Shown here one piece after another: positions 18,615 to 26,694 of a stretch of 64,000 bases of DNA. The DNA is from Achromobacter pulmonis. GTDB lineage: Bacteria > Pseudomonadota > Gammaproteobacteria > Burkholderiales > Burkholderiaceae_B. The first letter of the stretch is position 1. Each line of letters starts with the position of its first letter. A program made the translations under genes and the position numbers. Where the stretch lies: the NCBI RefSeq assembly GCF_902859765.1, contig NZ_CADIJV010000003.1, positions 124,001-188,000 of the forward strand. The letters run 5' to 3'. The notes under the pieces were generated by a model. The model was given only the letters and a program-made list of their open reading frames with translations. It was not told where the DNA came from and did no database searches.

Positions 18615-19573
18615 GGCTGGATCTCCGGCAGTTCCGGCGCGATCAGGTCCAGGCCCGCGCGCAGCAGGCGGTCATAGCGGGCGCGCTCGGCGGCGATGGT
18701 TTCCGGCGTCCAGGCGTAGAAACCTTCGCCGGCCTTCATGCCGTGGCGGCCGTCGGCGGCGCGCTCGGTCAGGCAGCGCGCCGGGTGGTCGTCATTGCAG
18801 AACGTCGGGTACATGGTCGCGCCCGCCGCCGCGTGCACGTCGATGCCGGCGTGGTCACGCTGCATCACCGGGCCGGCCGCCAGGAAGCGGAAGCCGAAAC
18901 CGAAGCGCACCGCCGCGTCCACGTCCTCGGGCGAGGCGATGCCGCGGTCGATCAGGTTGAACGCCTCGCGCGACAGCGCGTGCTGCAGGCGGTTGGCGAG
19001 AAAGCCCGGCAGGTCCTGGCGCACCTTCACCGGCACGCTGCCGCAGCGGCGCATGAAGGCGATCAGCGCGTCGGCGCGGGCCTCGTCGCTGGTCTCGGCC
19101 ATCACCACCTCGACCAGCGGCACCAGGTGCGCCGGCATGAAGAAGTGCAGGCCCAGCATGCGTTCGCGCGTGGCCAGCCCCTGGCCGATGGCGCTGATCG
19201 GGAAGCTGGAGCTGTTGCTCGCCAGGATGGCGTCGGGGCGCGCGCGCCGCACCAGCTCGGCGAACAGCGCCTGCTTGATGTCCAGCCGCTCCGGCACGCA
19301 CTCGATCACCAGATCGACGCTGGCCCAGTCCACCTGGTCCAGGCTGGCCGCCGTCGCCAGTTGCGATACCAGCGCCTCGCGGCCGATGGTCTTGAGGTTG
19401 TCGGCCACGCGCGCCGGCAGCGCGGCCGCGCGCGCCGCGTCGGGTTCAATCACCGTCGTGCGGCAGGCGGTGCGCGTCAGCACCACCGCCACGTCGGCGC
19501 CCATGGTGCCGCCGCCCACCACCACCGCATGCGCCGCGCCCGGATTGGGCAGGGCCTTCGCGTCCGTCTGCAT
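18611..19573 (-). CDS. 3-hydroxyacyl-CoA dehydrogenase-family NAD dehydrogenase
   Basis: The 320-residue protein has a Rossmann motif VVVGGGTMGADVA near the N-terminus, the catalytic-domain block ASNSSSFPIS, LGLHFFMPAHLVPLVEVV with the active-site histidine, and a C-terminal helical domain ending HGMKAGEGFYAW. Size and layout resemble L-carnitine and L-gulonate dehydrogenases as well as hydroxybutyryl-CoA dehydrogenases. Paired with BKACE, it most likely oxidises a beta-hydroxy acid to a beta-keto acid. Unlike Pseudomonas carnitine clusters there is no thioesterase gene here, so carnitine is only one option. The ATG at 19573 follows GGAGCAAACC. The promoter faces the LysR gene. Confidence 0.82.
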   Translation of the reverse strand: MQTDAKALPNPGAAHAVVVGGGTMGADVAVVLTRTACRTTVIEPDAARAAALPARVADNLKTIGREALVSQLATAASLDQVDWASVDLVIECVPERLDIKQALFAELVRRARPDAILASNSSSFPISAIGQGLATRERMLGLHFFMPAHLVPLVEVVMAETSDEARADALIAFMRRCGSVPVKVRQDLPGFLANRLQHALSREAFNLIDRGIASPEDVDAAVRFGFGFRFLAAGPVMQRDHAGIDVHAAAGATMYPTFCNDDHPARCLTERAADGRHGMKAGEGFYAWTPETIAAERARYDRLLRAGLDLIAPELPEIQP

Positions 19574-19651
19574 GGTTTGCTCCTTGTCCTGAAACCGCAG
19601 TTGCATCTGCGTCCGTGTCTGTATTGGGCGCCGAGTGTAGAGAAGCTTGTT

Positions 19652-19665
19652 TGATTGATGAATCA
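19652..19665. promoter_or_regulatory. Palindromic operator candidate, copy 1
   Basis: TGATT-GATG-AATCA is a palindrome lying between the dehydrogenase operon and the LysR gene. The 17-base stretch 19651-19667 containing it recurs, inverted and unchanged, between ilvD and the Bug receptor gene (23308-23324). It is 57 bases upstream of the LysR start. Such conservation in otherwise unrelated intergenic DNA points to a shared transcription factor. Confidence 0.7.
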
Positions 19666-19721
19666 GATTTTTTGGATAGAATGATCGACAAACAAGATCA
19701 ATCAAGGAGGCGTTCGCCGCG

Positions 19722-20630
19722 ATGCAGATCAATCTCTCGATGCGCGATATCGACACGACCCTGGTGCTGGGCCGCACCCTCAATTTCCGCCAGGCGGCGG
19801 CGCAACTGCACCTGTCGCAGTCGGCCCTGTCGACACAGATCCAGCGCATCGAGGACGCGCTCGGCGTGCGCCTGTTCGACCGCACCACCCGCACGGTGCG
19901 GCTGACGGCGGCGGGCGAGGTCTTCATGCAGCAGGCGGCGGCCCTGCAGGTGGCGTTCCGCGACGCCATCGCCGCCGTCAGCGGCATCGCCAGCGCCGAG
20001 CATGGGCAGGTGTCGGTGGCGGCGCTGCCGTCGCTGGCCGCGCGGCTGCTGCCGCGGGTGCTGATGGCCTATCGCCAGGCGCATCCGCAGGTGGCGCTGA
20101 AGGTGCGCGACACGCTGTCGGGGCCGGCCTTTGATCTGGTGCGCGCGGGCGACGTGGATTTCGCCCTGACCGCCGCCGACCCGCAGCATGCCGATCTGCA
20201 TTACCAGCCGCTGATGTCGGATAGCTTCCTGCTGTTGATCCCCGAAGGCCACGCGCTGGCGCGTGCCAAGGGGCCGTTGCGCTGGGCCGACACGGCCGGC
20301 GCCGCGCATGTGTCAATGGTGCATCCGAGCAGCGTGCGCCAGTACACCGAGTGGGCCTTCCTGCAGAACCGCATCCGCTTCACCCCGGCTTTCGAGGCCG
20401 AGCACCTGACCACCATCGTGGCGATGGTGGAGTGCGGCTTCGGGGTGGCGGCGCTGCCCGAGATCGCGGCGGGGGCGGTGGCGCAGCATGGCATCGTGCA
20501 GCGGCCACTGACCGGCCCGGTGGCCGAACGCTCGATCGGGCTGGTGACGGCGCGCAACCGCAGCCTGCCGCCGGCCGCCGCCGCGCTGGTGGTAACGCTG
20601 CGGCAATACCTGGCCGGACAGGCGCAGTGA
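19722..20630 (+). CDS. LysR-family transcriptional regulator
   Basis: The 302-residue protein has the N-terminal winged HTH (LNFRQAAAQLHLSQSALSTQIQRIEDALGVRLFDR) and a periplasmic-binding-type effector domain. It is divergent from the dehydrogenase/BKACE operon, the classical LysR arrangement, and probably controls that operon. AGGAGG lies 15-20 bases before the ATG, so the start may be a few codons further in (ATG of MRDID at 19740 is an option). It converges with the GntR gene 74 bases downstream. The effector is unknown. Confidence 0.88.
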   Translation: MQINLSMRDIDTTLVLGRTLNFRQAAAQLHLSQSALSTQIQRIEDALGVRLFDRTTRTVRLTAAGEVFMQQAAALQVAFRDAIAAVSGIASAEHGQVSVAALPSLAARLLPRVLMAYRQAHPQVALKVRDTLSGPAFDLVRAGDVDFALTAADPQHADLHYQPLMSDSFLLLIPEGHALARAKGPLRWADTAGAAHVSMVHPSSVRQYTEWAFLQNRIRFTPAFEAEHLTTIVAMVECGFGVAALPEIAAGAVAQHGIVQRPLTGPVAERSIGLVTARNRSLPPAAAALVVTLRQYLAGQAQ

Positions 20631-20703
20631 GTGTCCCGGCGGGCGAGGGGGCCAGGCAAGGGCGGCGCGCCGCCCGGCCTGGGTGGTTGCGCGCGGGCGG
20701 CGC

Positions 20704-21387
20704 TCAGGCGCCGCGGCGTGCCTGCTCCGACGCCAGGTAGGCGTCGCGCGAGGGCAGCAGGTGCTCGCGGCAGAGTGTCATCAGCGCCGCGCGGTTGCCG
20801 TCGCGCAGCGCGTGGATCATGGCCCAGTGCTCCTGGCGGGCGCGTTCGCGATAATGCGCGGCCGCCAGCGAGCCGAAGCGGATCGGATGGGTGCGGCGCG
20901 CGTATTCCTCGATGGCCTGGCCCAGCACCGCGTTGTCAAGCAGGCCGAACAGTTCGCGGTGAAAGCGCTGGTTGCTGCGGAACACGCGGCGCGCGTCGCC
21001 GTCGGCCACCGCGGCGTCATGCTCGCGTTGCACCGCGACCAGCGCCGCCAGCCGCGCCGGGGCCACCGGCAGCGGCATCAGGCTGGCGGCATGCACCTCC
21101 AGCACGTCGCGCAGCGCGTATAACTCCATGACCTCGCGCGCCGAGTAGGCCCGCACCACCGCGCCGATGTTGCGCTTGCGCTCGACCACCCCCAGCAGTT
21201 CCAGCTCTGCCAGGACCTGGCGCACCGCGTGGCGCTTGAGGCCGAAGCGCGCCATCAGCTCGTCCTCGGTCAGCCGCTCGCGCGGATGCAGCCGGCCGAA
21301 GACGATGTCTTCCTCCAGCGTGGCCACCGCCGCCGCCAGGGCGTCGGGCGCTTGTGGTTCGAGATCGGCGGGGGTGATGGCGTTCAT
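20704..21387 (-). CDS. GntR-family regulator, FadR/FCD type
   Basis: The 227-residue protein has an N-terminal winged helix (ERLTEDELMARFGLKRHAVRQVLAELELLGVV) and a helical FCD effector domain with the metal-binding pattern (H143-like residue in NQRFHRELF and a late H in REHLLPSRD). FCD regulators usually respond to organic or sugar acids and repress catabolic genes. It lies 19 bases after ilvD on the same strand and is probably cotranscribed with it, giving feedback control. It is a prime candidate for binding the palindrome repeated upstream of ilvD and of the dehydrogenase operon. Confidence 0.88.
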   Translation of the reverse strand: MNAITPADLEPQAPDALAAAVATLEEDIVFGRLHPRERLTEDELMARFGLKRHAVRQVLAELELLGVVERKRNIGAVVRAYSAREVMELYALRDVLEVHAASLMPLPVAPARLAALVAVQREHDAAVADGDARRVFRSNQRFHRELFGLLDNAVLGQAIEEYARRTHPIRFGSLAAAHYRERARQEHWAMIHALRDGNRAALMTLCREHLLPSRDAYLASEQARRGA

Positions 21388-21406
21388 GGGCGGCGGGCGG
21401 TAAAGG

Positions 21407-23182
21407 TCATTGCTTGGGCACGGTGTCGCGCGTGGCGCTGGCGCGCAGGAAGTCGAAGTCCACGCCCTGGTCGGCCTGGGTCACGGTCTGCAGGAACAGC
21501 TTGCGGTAACCGCGCTCGGCGGCCGGGCGCTCGACCGGGGCAGCCGCCATGCGGCGCGCCAGCTCGGCAGCGTCGACCAGCAGCGCGATTTCGCGCCGCG
21601 CCACCGACAGGCGGATGCGGTCGCCATTTTGCACGTAGGCGAGCGGCCCGCCAATCGCGGCCTCGGGCGTGACGTGCAGCACGATGGTGCCGGCCGCCGT
21701 GCCGCTCATGCGGCCATCGGAAATGCGCACCATGTCCTTGACGCCGGCGCGCGCCAGTTTCTTGGGGATCGGCATGTAGCCGGCCTCGGGCATGCCGGGC
21801 GCGCCAGTGGGACCGATGCGCTTGAGTACCAGCACGTCGTCGGCGGTCACGTCCAGGGCCTCGTCGTCGATGCGGCGGGCCATGTCCTCGGCGTCCTCGA
21901 ACACGACCGCGCGGCCTTCGTGTTCCATCAGCTTGGGGTTGGCGGCCGACTGCTTGATGATGGCGCCGCCGGGCGCCAGGTTGCCGCGCAGCACGGCCAG
22001 GCCGCCCACCGGGTAGATGGGCGCGGCGACGCCGCGAATCACGTCCTGTTTGAAGGGCGCGGGGGCGTCGTCCAGTTCCTCGCCCAGGGTGCGGCCGGAC
22101 ACCGTCAGCGCGTCCAGGTGCAGCAGCGGACGCAGCTCGCGCAGCAGGGCCAGCATGCCGCCGGCGTGGTGGAAGTCTTCCATGTAGTGCTGGCCCGAGG
22201 GCTTCAGGTCGACCAGCACCGGGGTCTCGCGGCTCATGCGGTCCAGGCCGGCCAGGTCGATGTTGATGCCCAGGCGGCCGGCGATGGCGGTCAGGTGCAC
22301 GATGCCGTTGGTCGAGCCGCCGATCGCCAGCAGCACGCGCAGGGCGTTCTCGATGGACTTGCCGGTGATGATGCGGTCGGGCGTCAGGCGCGAGGCGGCC
22401 ATGGCGACGGCGGTGGCGCCGGTGCGCTCGGCCACGCGCACGCGGTCGGCGGTGACGGCTGGGGCGGAGGCGCCGCCGGCCACCATCATGCCCATCGCTT
22501 CGGTCAGGCAGGCCATGGTGCTGGCGGTGCCCATCACCGAACAGGTGCCGACGCTGGCCACCAGCTGGTTGTTGACGTCGGCGATTTCGGCCGCGTCGAT
22601 TTCCTCGGCGCGGTAACGGCCCCAGTAGCGGCGGCAGTCGGTGCAGGCGCCGACCCGTTCGCCGCGATGCGAGCCGGTCAGCATCGAGCCAGTCACCAGT
22701 TGGATCGCCGGCACGCCGGCCGACGAGGCGCCCATCAGTTGCGCCGGCACGGTCTTGTCGCAGCCGCCGATCAGCACTACCGCGTCCATCGGCTGGGCGC
22801 GGATCATTTCCTCGGTGTCCATTGACATGAGGTTGCGCAGGTACATGCTGGTGGGCTGCGAGAAGCTCTCGTGCACCGAGATGGTGGGGAAGTCCATCGG
22901 CAGGCCGCCGGCCAGCATGACGCCGCGCTTGACCGCCTCGATCAATTGCGGGGCGTTGCCGTGGCATGGGTTGTAGCTGCTGCCGGTGTTGACGATGCCG
23001 ATGATGGGGCGCGCCAGCGCGTCGTCGGACAGGCCGGCGCCCTTGATGAAGGCCTTGCGCAGGAACAGCGAAAAGCCGGTGTCGCCGTAGTTGGTGAGCC
23101 CGCGCGCCACGCCGGTGCTGCGCGCGCCATCGCTGTCGAAGGGGCCCTTGGCGGTCTGGCCGCCCTTGGTCTCGTCCGTCAT
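21407..23182 (-). CDS. IlvD/Edd-family dehydratase (sugar/hydroxy-acid type)
   Basis: The 591-residue protein is an iron-sulfur dehydratase of the IlvD/Edd superfamily, which removes water from 2,3-dihydroxy acids. Likely cluster cysteines are at about 73 (SYNPCHGNAP), 141 (GGCDKTVPA) and 214 (GTCSVMGTAST). Near the C-terminus ISDGRMSGTAAGTIVLHVTPEA is the typical IlvD active-site block. The N-terminal RGLTNYGDTGFSLFLRKAF and the overall length fit the aldonic-acid dehydratase branch (L-arabonate/D-xylonate type) better than biosynthetic IlvD, and the catabolic context agrees. The ATG at 23182 was chosen over an upstream frame extension that would run through the promoter region. Substrate is unknown. 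Confidence 0.85.
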   Translation of the reverse strand: MTDETKGGQTAKGPFDSDGARSTGVARGLTNYGDTGFSLFLRKAFIKGAGLSDDALARPIIGIVNTGSSYNPCHGNAPQLIEAVKRGVMLAGGLPMDFPTISVHESFSQPTSMYLRNLMSMDTEEMIRAQPMDAVVLIGGCDKTVPAQLMGASSAGVPAIQLVTGSMLTGSHRGERVGACTDCRRYWGRYRAEEIDAAEIADVNNQLVASVGTCSVMGTASTMACLTEAMGMMVAGGASAPAVTADRVRVAERTGATAVAMAASRLTPDRIITGKSIENALRVLLAIGGSTNGIVHLTAIAGRLGINIDLAGLDRMSRETPVLVDLKPSGQHYMEDFHHAGGMLALLRELRPLLHLDALTVSGRTLGEELDDAPAPFKQDVIRGVAAPIYPVGGLAVLRGNLAPGGAIIKQSAANPKLMEHEGRAVVFEDAEDMARRIDDEALDVTADDVLVLKRIGPTGAPGMPEAGYMPIPKKLARAGVKDMVRISDGRMSGTAAGTIVLHVTPEAAIGGPLAYVQNGDRIRLSVARREIALLVDAAELARRMAAAPVERPAAERGYRKLFLQTVTQADQGVDFDFLRASATRDTVPKQ

Positions 23183-23309
23183 TTTTCTTCCCGATAATAT
23201 TATTGATAATTCAATCCGGGGATCATATCCAGCCTTTGGAGAGGCCTGCAAGACCTTTTCACGGGAAATTTTATTGATCTAAAAAAAAGATCAGTCGATA
23301 GAAAAATTC

Positions 23310-23323
23310 TGATTCATCAATCA
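23310..23323. promoter_or_regulatory. Palindromic operator candidate, copy 2
   Basis: TGATT-CATC-AATCA lies between ilvD and the divergent Bug receptor gene, 79 bases before the latter's ATG. It is the exact inverse of the copy at 19652-19665, and the identity extends to 17 bases (23308-23324). A separate inverted repeat GATCT-A-run-AGATC lies just left of it (23276-23292). Confidence 0.7.
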
Positions 23324-23402
23324 AGAATCGGCTCCTACACTGGCTCCGTTGACGAGCCGGGCGTCCGTTCCATTCCTATACTCATCCCGGCAGGAGACCT
23401 AC

Positions 23403-24398
23403 ATGTCAGACCTGCGTCTGCGGCCCCGCCGCGCCTTGCTGCTTTCCCTGTTGGCCTTGTGTACCGGCGTGTCCGCGCCAGCCCTGGCCGCCGACGCCTA
23501 TCCCGACAAACCGATCCGCCTGATCGTGCCGTACCCGCCCGGGGGCGCCACCGACGTGATCGGCCGCGTGCTGGCGCAGGAGCTGACCGGCGCGCTGGGC
23601 CAGTCAGTGATTGTCGAGAACCGCGCCGGCGCCGCCGGCAACATCGGCGCCGACCAGGTCGCCAAGGCCCAGCCCGACGGCTATACGCTGTTGATGGGCG
23701 CGCTCACCAGCCATTCGATCAATGCCACCCTGTACCGCGGCCGCGTCACCTACGACGTGGAAAAGAGCTTCGCGCCGGTGTCGATCGTCGGCACCGTGCC
23801 CCTGGTGTTCGTGGTCAATCCCTCGGTGCAGGCCAATGACCTGAAGCAGTTGATCGCGCTGGCCAAGTCGCGCCCGGGCTACATCACCATGGCCTCGGCC
23901 GGCAACGGCTCGCCGCAGCACCTGGCGGGCGAAATGTTCAAGCGCGCCGCGGGCGTGGAGATCCTGCACGTGCCGTACAAGGGCAGCGGTCCGGCCATGA
24001 CCGATCTGATGGGAGGCCAGGTGCTCAGCATGATCGAGACGGTGCCGGCGTCGCAGTCCAGCATCAAGGCTGGCAAGCTGCGCGCGCTGGCGGTGACCTC
24101 GGCGCAGCGCGTCGCGGCGCTGCCGGACGTGCCGACGGCGGCAGAGGCCGGTCTGCCGGGGTTCGAAGTCAGCTCCATGTTCGGCATCGTCGCGCCGGCC
24201 GGTACGCCGGCGCCGGTGATCGATCGCCTGAACGGCGAGCTCAAGAAGATTCTGGCCAAGCCGGGGGTGAAGGCCTCGCTGTTGAATCAGGGCGCCATTG
24301 CCGAATGGACCACGCCGGCCGATGCCGGCGCCCGCGTGTCGGCCGAGGTGGCGCGTTGGACCAAGGTCATCAACGAGGCCGGGGTCAAGCCCGAATAA
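23403..24398 (+). CDS. Bug/TctC-family tripartite tricarboxylate receptor
   Basis: The 331-residue exported solute-binding protein has a signal peptide ending CTGVSAPALAA and the Bug signature from YPDKPIRLIVPYPPGGATDVIGR. NRAGAAGNIGADQVAKAQPDGYTLL is the second family block. Bug proteins bind carboxylates in the periplasm for TctAB-type transporters, but no TctA or TctB gene is nearby, as is usual for the expanded Bug sets of Bordetella and Achromobacter. The ATG at 23403 is preceded by AGGAGA. It is divergent from ilvD and shares its operator region, so its ligand may be the acid processed by the dehydratase. Confidence 0.9.
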   Translation: MSDLRLRPRRALLLSLLALCTGVSAPALAADAYPDKPIRLIVPYPPGGATDVIGRVLAQELTGALGQSVIVENRAGAAGNIGADQVAKAQPDGYTLLMGALTSHSINATLYRGRVTYDVEKSFAPVSIVGTVPLVFVVNPSVQANDLKQLIALAKSRPGYITMASAGNGSPQHLAGEMFKRAAGVEILHVPYKGSGPAMTDLMGGQVLSMIETVPASQSSIKAGKLRALAVTSAQRVAALPDVPTAAEAGLPGFEVSSMFGIVAPAGTPAPVIDRLNGELKKILAKPGVKASLLNQGAIAEWTTPADAGARVSAEVARWTKVINEAGVKPE

Positions 24399-24696: not shown

Positions 24697-26694
24697 ATGA
24701 CTGAGAATCAGGACGAAAAATCGATCCTGTACCTGCATTTCGGTACGCCTAGCCCCTATTGGAGGCTGGCGGCCGACAGCGACGCGATCGAACTATCCGC
24801 CGTCAAGGGCGCCACCAACATCGCCATGGCGCTCAAGCCCGAGCAGGCGCAGGCGATCCGCGCCCTGACCGGCATCACCGCCAGCCTGCGCATCGACATC
24901 GTGCTGTATGGCGACCCGATACAGTTGCGGCTGGTGGGCCGCAAGATCAATCCCAATGAATGGGCCGGCACGGCCTCGGCGCATACCGACACCGATTCGG
25001 TGGCGCGCGATCTGGTCGAGGGCCTGTCGTTCGCCGAGACCGTGGTGTCTGAAGCCAATTCGGTCATCGTCATCGTCGACCAGCATGGCCGAGTGCAGCG
25101 CTTCAACAAGGTCAGCGAGGAATACACCGGCAAACGCGAGCAGGACATCGTCGGGCGCAGCGTGTTCGACATGTTCATGACCCGCGAAGAGGCGGTCGCT
25201 TCACGCCGCAACATCGCCGAGTTCTACAAGCGCGGCCAATCCTATGAGGTCGAGCGCCTGATCAACACGGTCAAGGGGCCGCGGCTGTTCCTGTTCCGCA
25301 ATAAGTTCGTCACCAGCGGCAGCGGCGAGAAGCGCGTCTACCTGATCTGCTCGGGGACCGACATCACCGAGGAACGCCAGGCGCAGGAGCGCCTGCGGGT
25401 GCTGGCCAACACCGACATGCTGACCAATCTGCCCAACCGCCACGCCATCACCACGCGCCTGAAGGCGGCGCTGGCCGAAGGCGAGGGCGCCAGCGGCGGC
25501 GTGCTGTTCCTGGACCTGGATAACTTCAAGCGCATCAACGACCACTACGGCCATGGTTTCGGCGACCGCCTGCTCAAGTCGGTGGCAGTGGCCATTTCCA
25601 GTTGCCTGGCGCCCGGCCAGACGCTGGCGCGGCTGGGCGGCGATGAATTCCTGGTGCTGCAGGAAAACGCCGAGGCCTGGCAATTGGAGGCCACGGCCGG
25701 CCGCATCATCGAGCGCCTGCGCGATCCGTTCCGCCAGGAGCTGATCGAGGTCTACACCAGTTGTTCCATCGGCATTGCCATGTACCCCGAGCATGGCGCG
25801 GACCTGGACAGCGTGGTGCGCAGCGCCGACATCGCGATGTACGTGGCCAAGGAAGCCGGCCGCCATACCTACCGTGTGTTCCAGCCCGAGATGGACCGCC
25901 GCAACGCCGACTATGTCTGGCTCGACACCAATCTGCGCAAGGCGCTGGCCGAGGGCCATCTGATGCTGTACTACCAGCCCAAGCTGGCCGGCCGCGGCGG
26001 CGAGGTCGACGGGGTCGAGGCGCTGCTGCGCTGGCGCTCGCCCGAGCGCGGCATGATCTGCCCGAGCGTGTTCATTCCCTACGCGGAAGAGTCGGGCCTG
26101 ATCTCGCAGTTGGGCGTGTGGGTGATGCGCGAGGCCGCGCGCCAGGCCGCGGCCTGGAAGCGCGACGGGCTGAACCTGCGGGTGGCGGTGAACGTGTCGG
26201 CGCGCCAGCTGGATGACAAGGGCGTGGTCAGCGAGTTCATGCGCGCCGTCAATGACGCCGGCCTGGCCCCCTGCCTGCTCGATATCGAACTGACCGAAAG
26301 CTGCCTGATCGAGGACGAGGTCGCCGCGATCGAGCTGATGAAGCAGTTCCGCCAACTGGGCGCGCGGGTCCACCTGGATGACTTTGGCACCGGCTATTCG
26401 TCGCTGTCGCAACTGGCGCGCATTCCGCTGGACGCGATCAAGCTGGACGCCAGCTTCGTGCGCGGCGTCAACGAGAACCCGGTGTCGCAGGCGCTGGCGC
26501 GGGCCATCGTGGCGGTGGCCAGCACGCTCGAACTCAAGGTGATCGCCGAGGGCGTCGAAACCCAGGAGGAAGCCGCCTTCCTCGACACGCTGGGGGTGGA
26601 CGCCAAGCAAGGCTATTTGTATGCCAAGCCCATGCCCGCCGCGGAACTGACCGCCTGGCTGGCGCAGCGGCGCCGGCTGCATCTGATCGCCTGA
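24697..26694 (+). CDS. rpfR: RpfR-type BDSF receptor: FI-PAS-GGDEF-EAL c-di-GMP enzyme
   Basis: The 665-residue cytoplasmic protein has an N-terminal segment of about 90 residues (LYLHFGTPSPYWRLAADSD and on) like the RpfF-interaction domain of RpfR and E. coli PdeR. A PAS domain follows (about 110-225), then a GGDEF domain with intact GGDEF at 314-318 and an EAL domain with EAL at 441-443 and DDFGTGYSSL. RpfR binds the fatty-acid signal BDSF through PAS, which stimulates c-di-GMP hydrolysis by EAL. The gene is convergent with rpfF, 22 bases apart, as expected for a signal/receptor pair. Size equals that of PdeR (661). Without the rpfF neighbour PdeR would be the default name. Confidence 0.88.
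   Translation: MTENQDEKSILYLHFGTPSPYWRLAADSDAIELSAVKGATNIAMALKPEQAQAIRALTGITASLRIDIVLYGDPIQLRLVGRKINPNEWAGTASAHTDTDSVARDLVEGLSFAETVVSEANSVIVIVDQHGRVQRFNKVSEEYTGKREQDIVGRSVFDMFMTREEAVASRRNIAEFYKRGQSYEVERLINTVKGPRLFLFRNKFVTSGSGEKRVYLICSGTDITEERQAQERLRVLANTDMLTNLPNRHAITTRLKAALAEGEGASGGVLFLDLDNFKRINDHYGHGFGDRLLKSVAVAISSCLAPGQTLARLGGDEFLVLQENAEAWQLEATAGRIIERLRDPFRQELIEVYTSCSIGIAMYPEHGADLDSVVRSADIAMYVAKEAGRHTYRVFQPEMDRRNADYVWLDTNLRKALAEGHLMLYYQPKLAGRGGEVDGVEALLRWRSPERGMICPSVFIPYAEESGLISQLGVWVMREAARQAAAWKRDGLNLRVAVNVSARQLDDKGVVSEFMRAVNDAGLAPCLLDIELTESCLIEDEVAAIELMKQFRQLGARVHLDDFGTGYSSLSQLARIPLDAIKLDASFVRGVNENPVSQALARAIVAVASTLELKVIAEGVETQEEAAFLDTLGVDAKQGYLYAKPMPAAELTAWLAQRRRLHLIA

Follow-up and report, generated by a model that had tools for sequence, protein, structure and literature searches.

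Two intergenic regions in a 64,000-nucleotide stretch of the Achromobacter pulmonis genome (assembly GCF_902859765.1, contig NZ_CADIJV010000003.1, positions 124,001 to 188,000; hereafter the window) share an identical 17-bp sequence, TCTGATTCATCAATCAA, which lies on the forward strand at 23308–23324 and inverted at 19651–19667, with no mismatches. One copy separates lysR, encoding a LysR-type regulator, from the genes for a 3-hydroxyacyl-CoA-dehydrogenase-type dehydrogenase (DH) and a BKACE family enzyme; the other separates ilvD-gntR, encoding an IlvD/Edd-family dehydratase and an FCD-type GntR regulator, from bug, encoding a Bug (TctC) periplasmic receptor. On the evidence of sequence, spacing and distribution, both copies very probably belong to full-length binding sites of this LysR protein, which would activate DH-BKACE and bug and repress its own gene, with GntR acting at ilvD-gntR through a dyad of its own. 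The original prediction for this DNA had correctly described the inverted 17-bp identity, the palindrome TGATT-N4-AATCA inside it and the gene context of both copies, and had tied five to seven genes into a single probable regulon, most likely under GntR. The tie between the two promoters stands, the shared site is not common elsewhere in the genome, and a shared regulon is real with high likelihood; its regulator, however, is most likely LysR and not GntR.

No third place in the window matches TCTGATTCATCAATCAA at up to three mismatches (shuffle mean 0.02). The 5.67-Mb genome contains it exactly twice, and only three other places fall within three mismatches (with 2, 3 and 3). Searching the genome for the motif, one of the checks suggested with the original prediction, placed it at these two promoters and not commonly elsewhere.

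Anatomy of the shared site

The 17-mer is genuine but too short a description of what the promoters have in common. Comparison of the two places by eye revealed ATTGATC, GATCA and an A-rich spacer ahead of it, so that the full shared site reads ATTGATC-N9-GATCA-N14-TCTGATTCATCAATCAA-N11-TACACT, a 52-bp pattern (19651–19702 and 23273–23324) followed by a TACACT hexamer, about 70 bp in total. Both dyads and TACACT keep identical spacing at the two promoters, while the flanks otherwise differ. The 52-bp pattern has two matches in the whole genome at up to three mismatches, and its first half, the recognition half, is likewise found only at these sites; neither search (≤3 mismatches each), nor one with the 17-mer (0–1 mismatch), yielded further regulon members in the genome. 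Six stray places matching a 15-mer with one mismatch (five in genus genomes, one in genome G051) lack the full site, with best matrix scores of -69 to -92 versus 81 to 114 for the sites used to build the matrix.

According to excerpts of PMC8407307, LysR-type sites span 50–60 bp, with a T-N11-A recognition box near -65 and, over the -35/-10 region, a site for activation. To place the dyads we took transcription to start about 7 nt past the TACACT hexamer. Counted from this inferred start, the recognition dyad (ATC-N9-GAT), with its T-N11-A box, is centred at about -64 for both DH and bug, near the -65 of LysR-type sites, and the second dyad, TGATT-N4-AATCA, at about -31 for both, where it ends 12 nt before TACACT and would, as an activation site should, occupy the -35 region of the target. 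At site 1 the box directly follows the predicted lysR promoter, the arrangement of an autoregulated divergent promoter; because the recognition dyad covers the expected lysR start, autorepression by LysR is to be expected. The lysR protein itself has the N-terminal HTH_1 and LysR_substrate domains of the family, and the -10 of its predicted promoter, TAGAAT, is kept in all 41 Achromobacter genomes compared below.

This anatomy suggests that a LysR tetramer would occupy the recognition and second dyads and, with an inducer that would probably be one of the pathway's hydroxy- or keto-acids, activate a promoter having TACACT as its -10. Site 1 would then drive DH-BKACE and site 2 the Bug receptor gene, while LysR on the recognition dyad would repress lysR, and GntR would control ilvD-gntR through ATTATYRATAAT. 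The best-supported regulon consists of DH, BKACE, lysR and bug, and GntR probably controls ilvD-gntR, with an extra input from LysR possible. Coordinates are collected in the table.

Table. Sites, predicted promoter elements and genes in and around the two intergenic regions (window coordinates)
Feature	Positions	Strand	Basis or remark
Site 1: complete LysR-type site with -10-like TACACT (19634–19639), reading toward DH-BKACE	19631–19702	-	sequence
Site 1 recognition dyad TGATC-N9-GATCA (ATC-N9-GAT, T-N11-A), over expected lysR start	19682–19700	-	sequence
Site 1 second (putative activation) dyad TGATT-N4-AATCA, within the 17-mer	19652–19665	-	sequence
lysR promoter TTGATG-N16-TAGAAT (predicted), in overlap with site 1	19655–19682	+	promoter scan, 9/12 matches
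Site 2: complete LysR-type site with -10-like TACACT (23336–23341), reading toward the Bug gene	23273–23344	+	sequence
Site 2 recognition dyad TGATCT-N7-AGATCA	23275–23293	+	sequence
Site 2 second (putative activation) dyad TGATT-N4-AATCA	23310–23323	+	sequence
Conserved element GATAATATTATTGATAAT (core ATTATTGATAAT, dyad ATTATYRATAAT), likely GntR operator at ilvD start	23193–23210	.	conservation
ilvD -10-like TATGAT, after the exact operator in 40/41 genomes	23222–23227	-	chosen by eye
BKACE family enzyme (PF05853), 284 aa	17760–18614	-	
3-Hydroxyacyl-CoA-dehydrogenase-type dehydrogenase (DH), 320 aa	18611–19573	-	
LysR-type regulator, 302 aa, proposed to bind at sites 1 and 2	19722–20630	+	PF00126 (HTH_1) and PF03466 (LysR_substrate) above cut-off
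FCD-type GntR regulator, 227 aa, with 23193–23210 as its probable operator	20704–21387	-	
IlvD/Edd-family dehydratase, 591 aa	21407–23182	-	
Bug/TctC periplasmic receptor, 331 aa	23403–24398	+	

Conservation of the site and its co-occurrence with LysR

Our genus set comprised 43 Achromobacter genomes, including that of the window, of which 41 were used; the two left out are G029 (78% complete), with a GntR fragment and no LysR match, and G034 (57% complete), with neither regulator. LysR accompanies a full-length or nearly full-length GntR in 41/43 genomes, and in all 41 used both promoters are readable and both sites present. The exact ATC-N9-GAT is found in 41/41 sequences at site 1 and 38/41 at site 2, the terminal ATCAA in 41/41 and 40/41 (ATCAG once), and the hexamer 11 nt past the site end is TACACT in 41/41 at DH and, at bug, TACACT in 34 and TAAACT in 7. 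Mean column identity is 0.93 in site 1 and 0.88 in site 2, compared to 0.49 and 0.60 just upstream; downstream values are 0.63 and 0.93, respectively, the bug leader being conserved in its own right. The distance between lysR and gntR varies widely in these genomes (<1 kb in 13, 2.6–8.8 kb in nine, >18 kb in 18, different contigs in one), and the sites are kept in all 19 genomes in which the two genes lie more than 18 kb or contigs apart.

Outside the genus, LysR homologues with 80–86% identity occur in 18 loci of Bordetella, Cupriavidus and Burkholderiaceae bacterium 16 (L185–L202; L204 and L205, at 25–27% identity, were excluded, and 26 Achromobacter loci were left out to avoid counting them twice). 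A relaxed pattern finds both sites in 18/18. The hexamer follows at 11 nt in all but three of the 36 sites, where the distance is 12 nt, and the most altered is site 2 of L185 and L191, which departs from the strict motif by 6 and 7 mismatches, respectively. Both sites are retained in the seven of these loci that lack gntR, a 60–64% GntR homologue being present elsewhere in each of those seven genomes.

A sample of 399 genomes of the order, in which presence was called from a loose initial screen that scored a few candidates in each genome, contained LysR in 6 (E≤1e-62) and GntR in 10 (E≤1e-60). The site pattern was detected in four (G000, G003, G037 and G369), all among the six LysR-positive genomes, and in none of the six with GntR but without this LysR (G056, G215, G295, G322, G364 and G418), nor in G049. 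G369 carries LysR and the site without any GntR homologue at E≤1e-20; G290 also has no GntR homologue at that threshold. The helix HLSQSALSTQ, which we take to be the DNA-reading helix of LysR, is unchanged in five aligned proteins from Bordetella, Cupriavidus and G369 and altered in G290, G191 and G051.

Several observations weigh against LysR as the reader of both sites. Three of the four pattern-positive genomes in the order sample belong to one genus, and the pattern had been loosened after the sites of G369 and of the Bordetella and Cupriavidus group were seen, so that pattern and matches depend on each other there; as the pattern was fitted to sites already seen, its absence elsewhere carries more weight than those matches. 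In addition, an exact ATC-N9-GAT is missing at site 2 in three of 41 sequences. More distant LysR homologues fit the pattern poorly: in G290 and G191, the other two LysR-positive genomes of the order sample (57% and 53% LysR identity), the recognition half and the -10 spacing (TACACT/TAGACT) are preserved but not the second dyad, and neither pattern nor matrix finds a match in G051 (47%). The promoter scan gave no positive support, returning no sigma-70-like pair in 23170–23420 and none toward DH; a weak -35 is usual in activated promoters. Finally, LysR binding and activation are predictions from sequence.

A separate element at ilvD and alternative explanations

A different conserved element, GATAATATTATTGATAAT, lies at the start of ilvD, and its dyad, ATTATYRATAAT at 23193–23210, is probably GntR's own operator, controlling ilvD-gntR. 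The element GATAATATTATTGATAAT is exact in 40/41 genus genomes, with one mismatch in G007 (by eye), and occurs once in the A. pulmonis genome, where the next best place has two mismatches. Beyond the genus it is present at ilvD with 0–2 mismatches in 18/18 loci of the Bordetella and Cupriavidus group, and six outgroup loci (L259–L264) have its core, ATTATTGATAAT, with 0–1 mismatch ahead of ilvD or gntR. A dyad of the ATTATYRATAAT type is found upstream of ilvD or gntR in all seven out-of-genus loci that encode GntR together with an IlvD of at least 77% identity. G049 carries the core as ATTATCGATAAT, and the same variant stands just upstream of a GntR homologue of 41–42% identity in G455 (L216). 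Seven Bordetella loci (L186, L187, L190, L192, L198, L199 and L200) keep the probable operator with no gntR beside ilvD. Two results count against the assignment to GntR: the 60–64% GntR homologues of these seven Bordetella genomes (L209–L215) lack the element within about 1.5 kb, where the best places have 6–8 mismatches to the 18-mer, and GntR of G056 (L140, L220) also has no such element nearby, the only IlvD in its vicinity being a 47% homologue.

With this element in view, the alternative that both 17-mers are operators of FCD-type GntR, with the entire gene set under its control, appears highly improbable. It would agree with the position of gntR between the two sites in the window, with the short dyad inside the 17-mer, and with the joint presence of lysR and full-length gntR in all but two genus genomes, both of them incomplete. 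However, the site is missing from order genomes that have GntR without this LysR, and from G049; it is present in G369 without a recognizable GntR; it persists as a pair in seven loci with no local gntR, even though a homologue is encoded elsewhere in those genomes; and the seven outgroup loci with GntR and an IlvD of at least 77% identity display a different dyad upstream of ilvD or gntR. On co-occurrence we reject GntR as the reader of the 17-mer, and since the site also has LysR-type anatomy, its assignment to GntR is not supported. That the shared sequence is simply the remnant of a recent local duplication, and no control site, might be suggested by the 3.6 kb separating the copies in the window, but this is already contradicted by the conservation pattern, with identity falling sharply just upstream of each site and both copies kept where lysR and gntR are far apart and in other genera, and its probability is negligible.

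A more credible alternative is that both regulators act in the ilvD-bug region and that site 2 is a two-input switch, at which LysR could aid ilvD while GntR represses it. The recognition dyad of site 2 (centre 23284) lies at about -69 from the expected ilvD start, given the -10-like TATGAT at 23227–23222, and the GntR-type element stands alongside, exact in nearly all genus genomes. Against this, the second dyad and TACACT point toward bug only, and G049 possesses ilvD-gntR without any LysR-type site. We consider such a switch a reasonable possibility, though one that falls short of being probable, and retain LysR control of DH-BKACE, lysR and bug, with GntR at ilvD-gntR, as the preferred explanation.

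The bug mRNA leader (23343–23400) keeps GAGCCGGGC and, beside the ribosome site, TCCCGGC, between which pairing is possible. A simple string test finds a pair of this type in 58/59 bug leaders. By eye, the Bordetella ansorpii leaders (L186 and L187) carry a matched change, and at least six other leaders are altered on one side only. RNAalifold did not return the leader hairpin, and Rfam gave no match over 19500–23600 at E≤0.5. Downstream of the Bug gene, at 24697–26694, lies a gene for a PAS-GGDEF-EAL protein, with domains of the cyclic di-GMP type.

Gene linkage and comparison with known systems

The genes of the two promoters recur together in other arrangements. In G051, DH, BKACE, Bug and LysR form one co-directional cluster (L141:4946–8731); neither gntR nor ilvD lies within the 10 kb fetched, and the genome yields no GntR at E≤1e-40. 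In G049, ilvD, gntR and DH run in one direction with Bug divergent (L138:1674–6403), there is no LysR-type site, and the 10 kb fetched contains no match to this LysR or BKACE; the gene set is thus wired in another way there, and ilvD-gntR-DH is also found in G322. This linkage in several arrangements supports the involvement of the genes in one pathway. No description of the DH/BKACE cluster, its target pathway or its inducer was among the matches listed in the literature searched.

The kind of control proposed here is ordinary. As in the general LysR model for divergent promoters outlined in the excerpts of PMC8407307, the regulator gene is divergent from its target and the site has the expected length, T-N11-A box near -65 and activation site; unlike in that model, the same site would also serve a second promoter, that of bug, in a gene group which is more than 18 kb away or on another contig in 19/41 genomes. 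In Ralstonia eutropha, according to excerpts of PMC6449761, CatM/BenM control a gene of COG3246, the BKACE family. Control by a LysR-type regulator of an operon with a BKACE-family gene would be common to both systems, but that source (PMC6449761) describes catechol/benzoate metabolism, while here BKACE is accompanied by a 3HCDH-type dehydrogenase and a Bug receptor.

Neither DH nor BKACE matches any NCBIfam model above cut-off, and IlvD is assigned to a dehydratase subfamily only. An Ala replacing an Arg, seen also in another structure of the family (3chv), may go with a different substrate. The L-carnitine pathway of Pseudomonas includes a 3HCDH-type L-carnitine dehydrogenase that feeds a BKACE. 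In contrast to that pathway, DH reaches 109.4 and 113.5 bits with the NCBIfam carnitine models, far short of their cut-offs of 414 and 592, and is not identified as a carnitine dehydrogenase, and no AraC-type regulator is present among the genes assigned to families here.

We tentatively suggest, as a scheme that is rather doubtful at present, that in Achromobacter, Bordetella and Cupriavidus an undescribed beta-hydroxy-acid pathway (DH, BKACE, the IlvD-type dehydratase and Bug) receives two regulatory inputs, one from LysR and one from GntR. LysR would sense one metabolite and activate uptake and cleavage, GntR would sense another and release the dehydratase, and both would meet in the ilvD-bug intergenic region, perhaps together with a hairpin in the bug mRNA leader. 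What is new here is the assignment of the regulator, the exact definition of its proposed site and a distinct candidate element for GntR. These provide a sharply defined candidate operator for a LysR-type regulator and another for a GntR-type regulator, connect, as members of one likely pathway, enzymes whose genes are widely separated in many species, and narrow the search for the substrate of the DH/BKACE pair.

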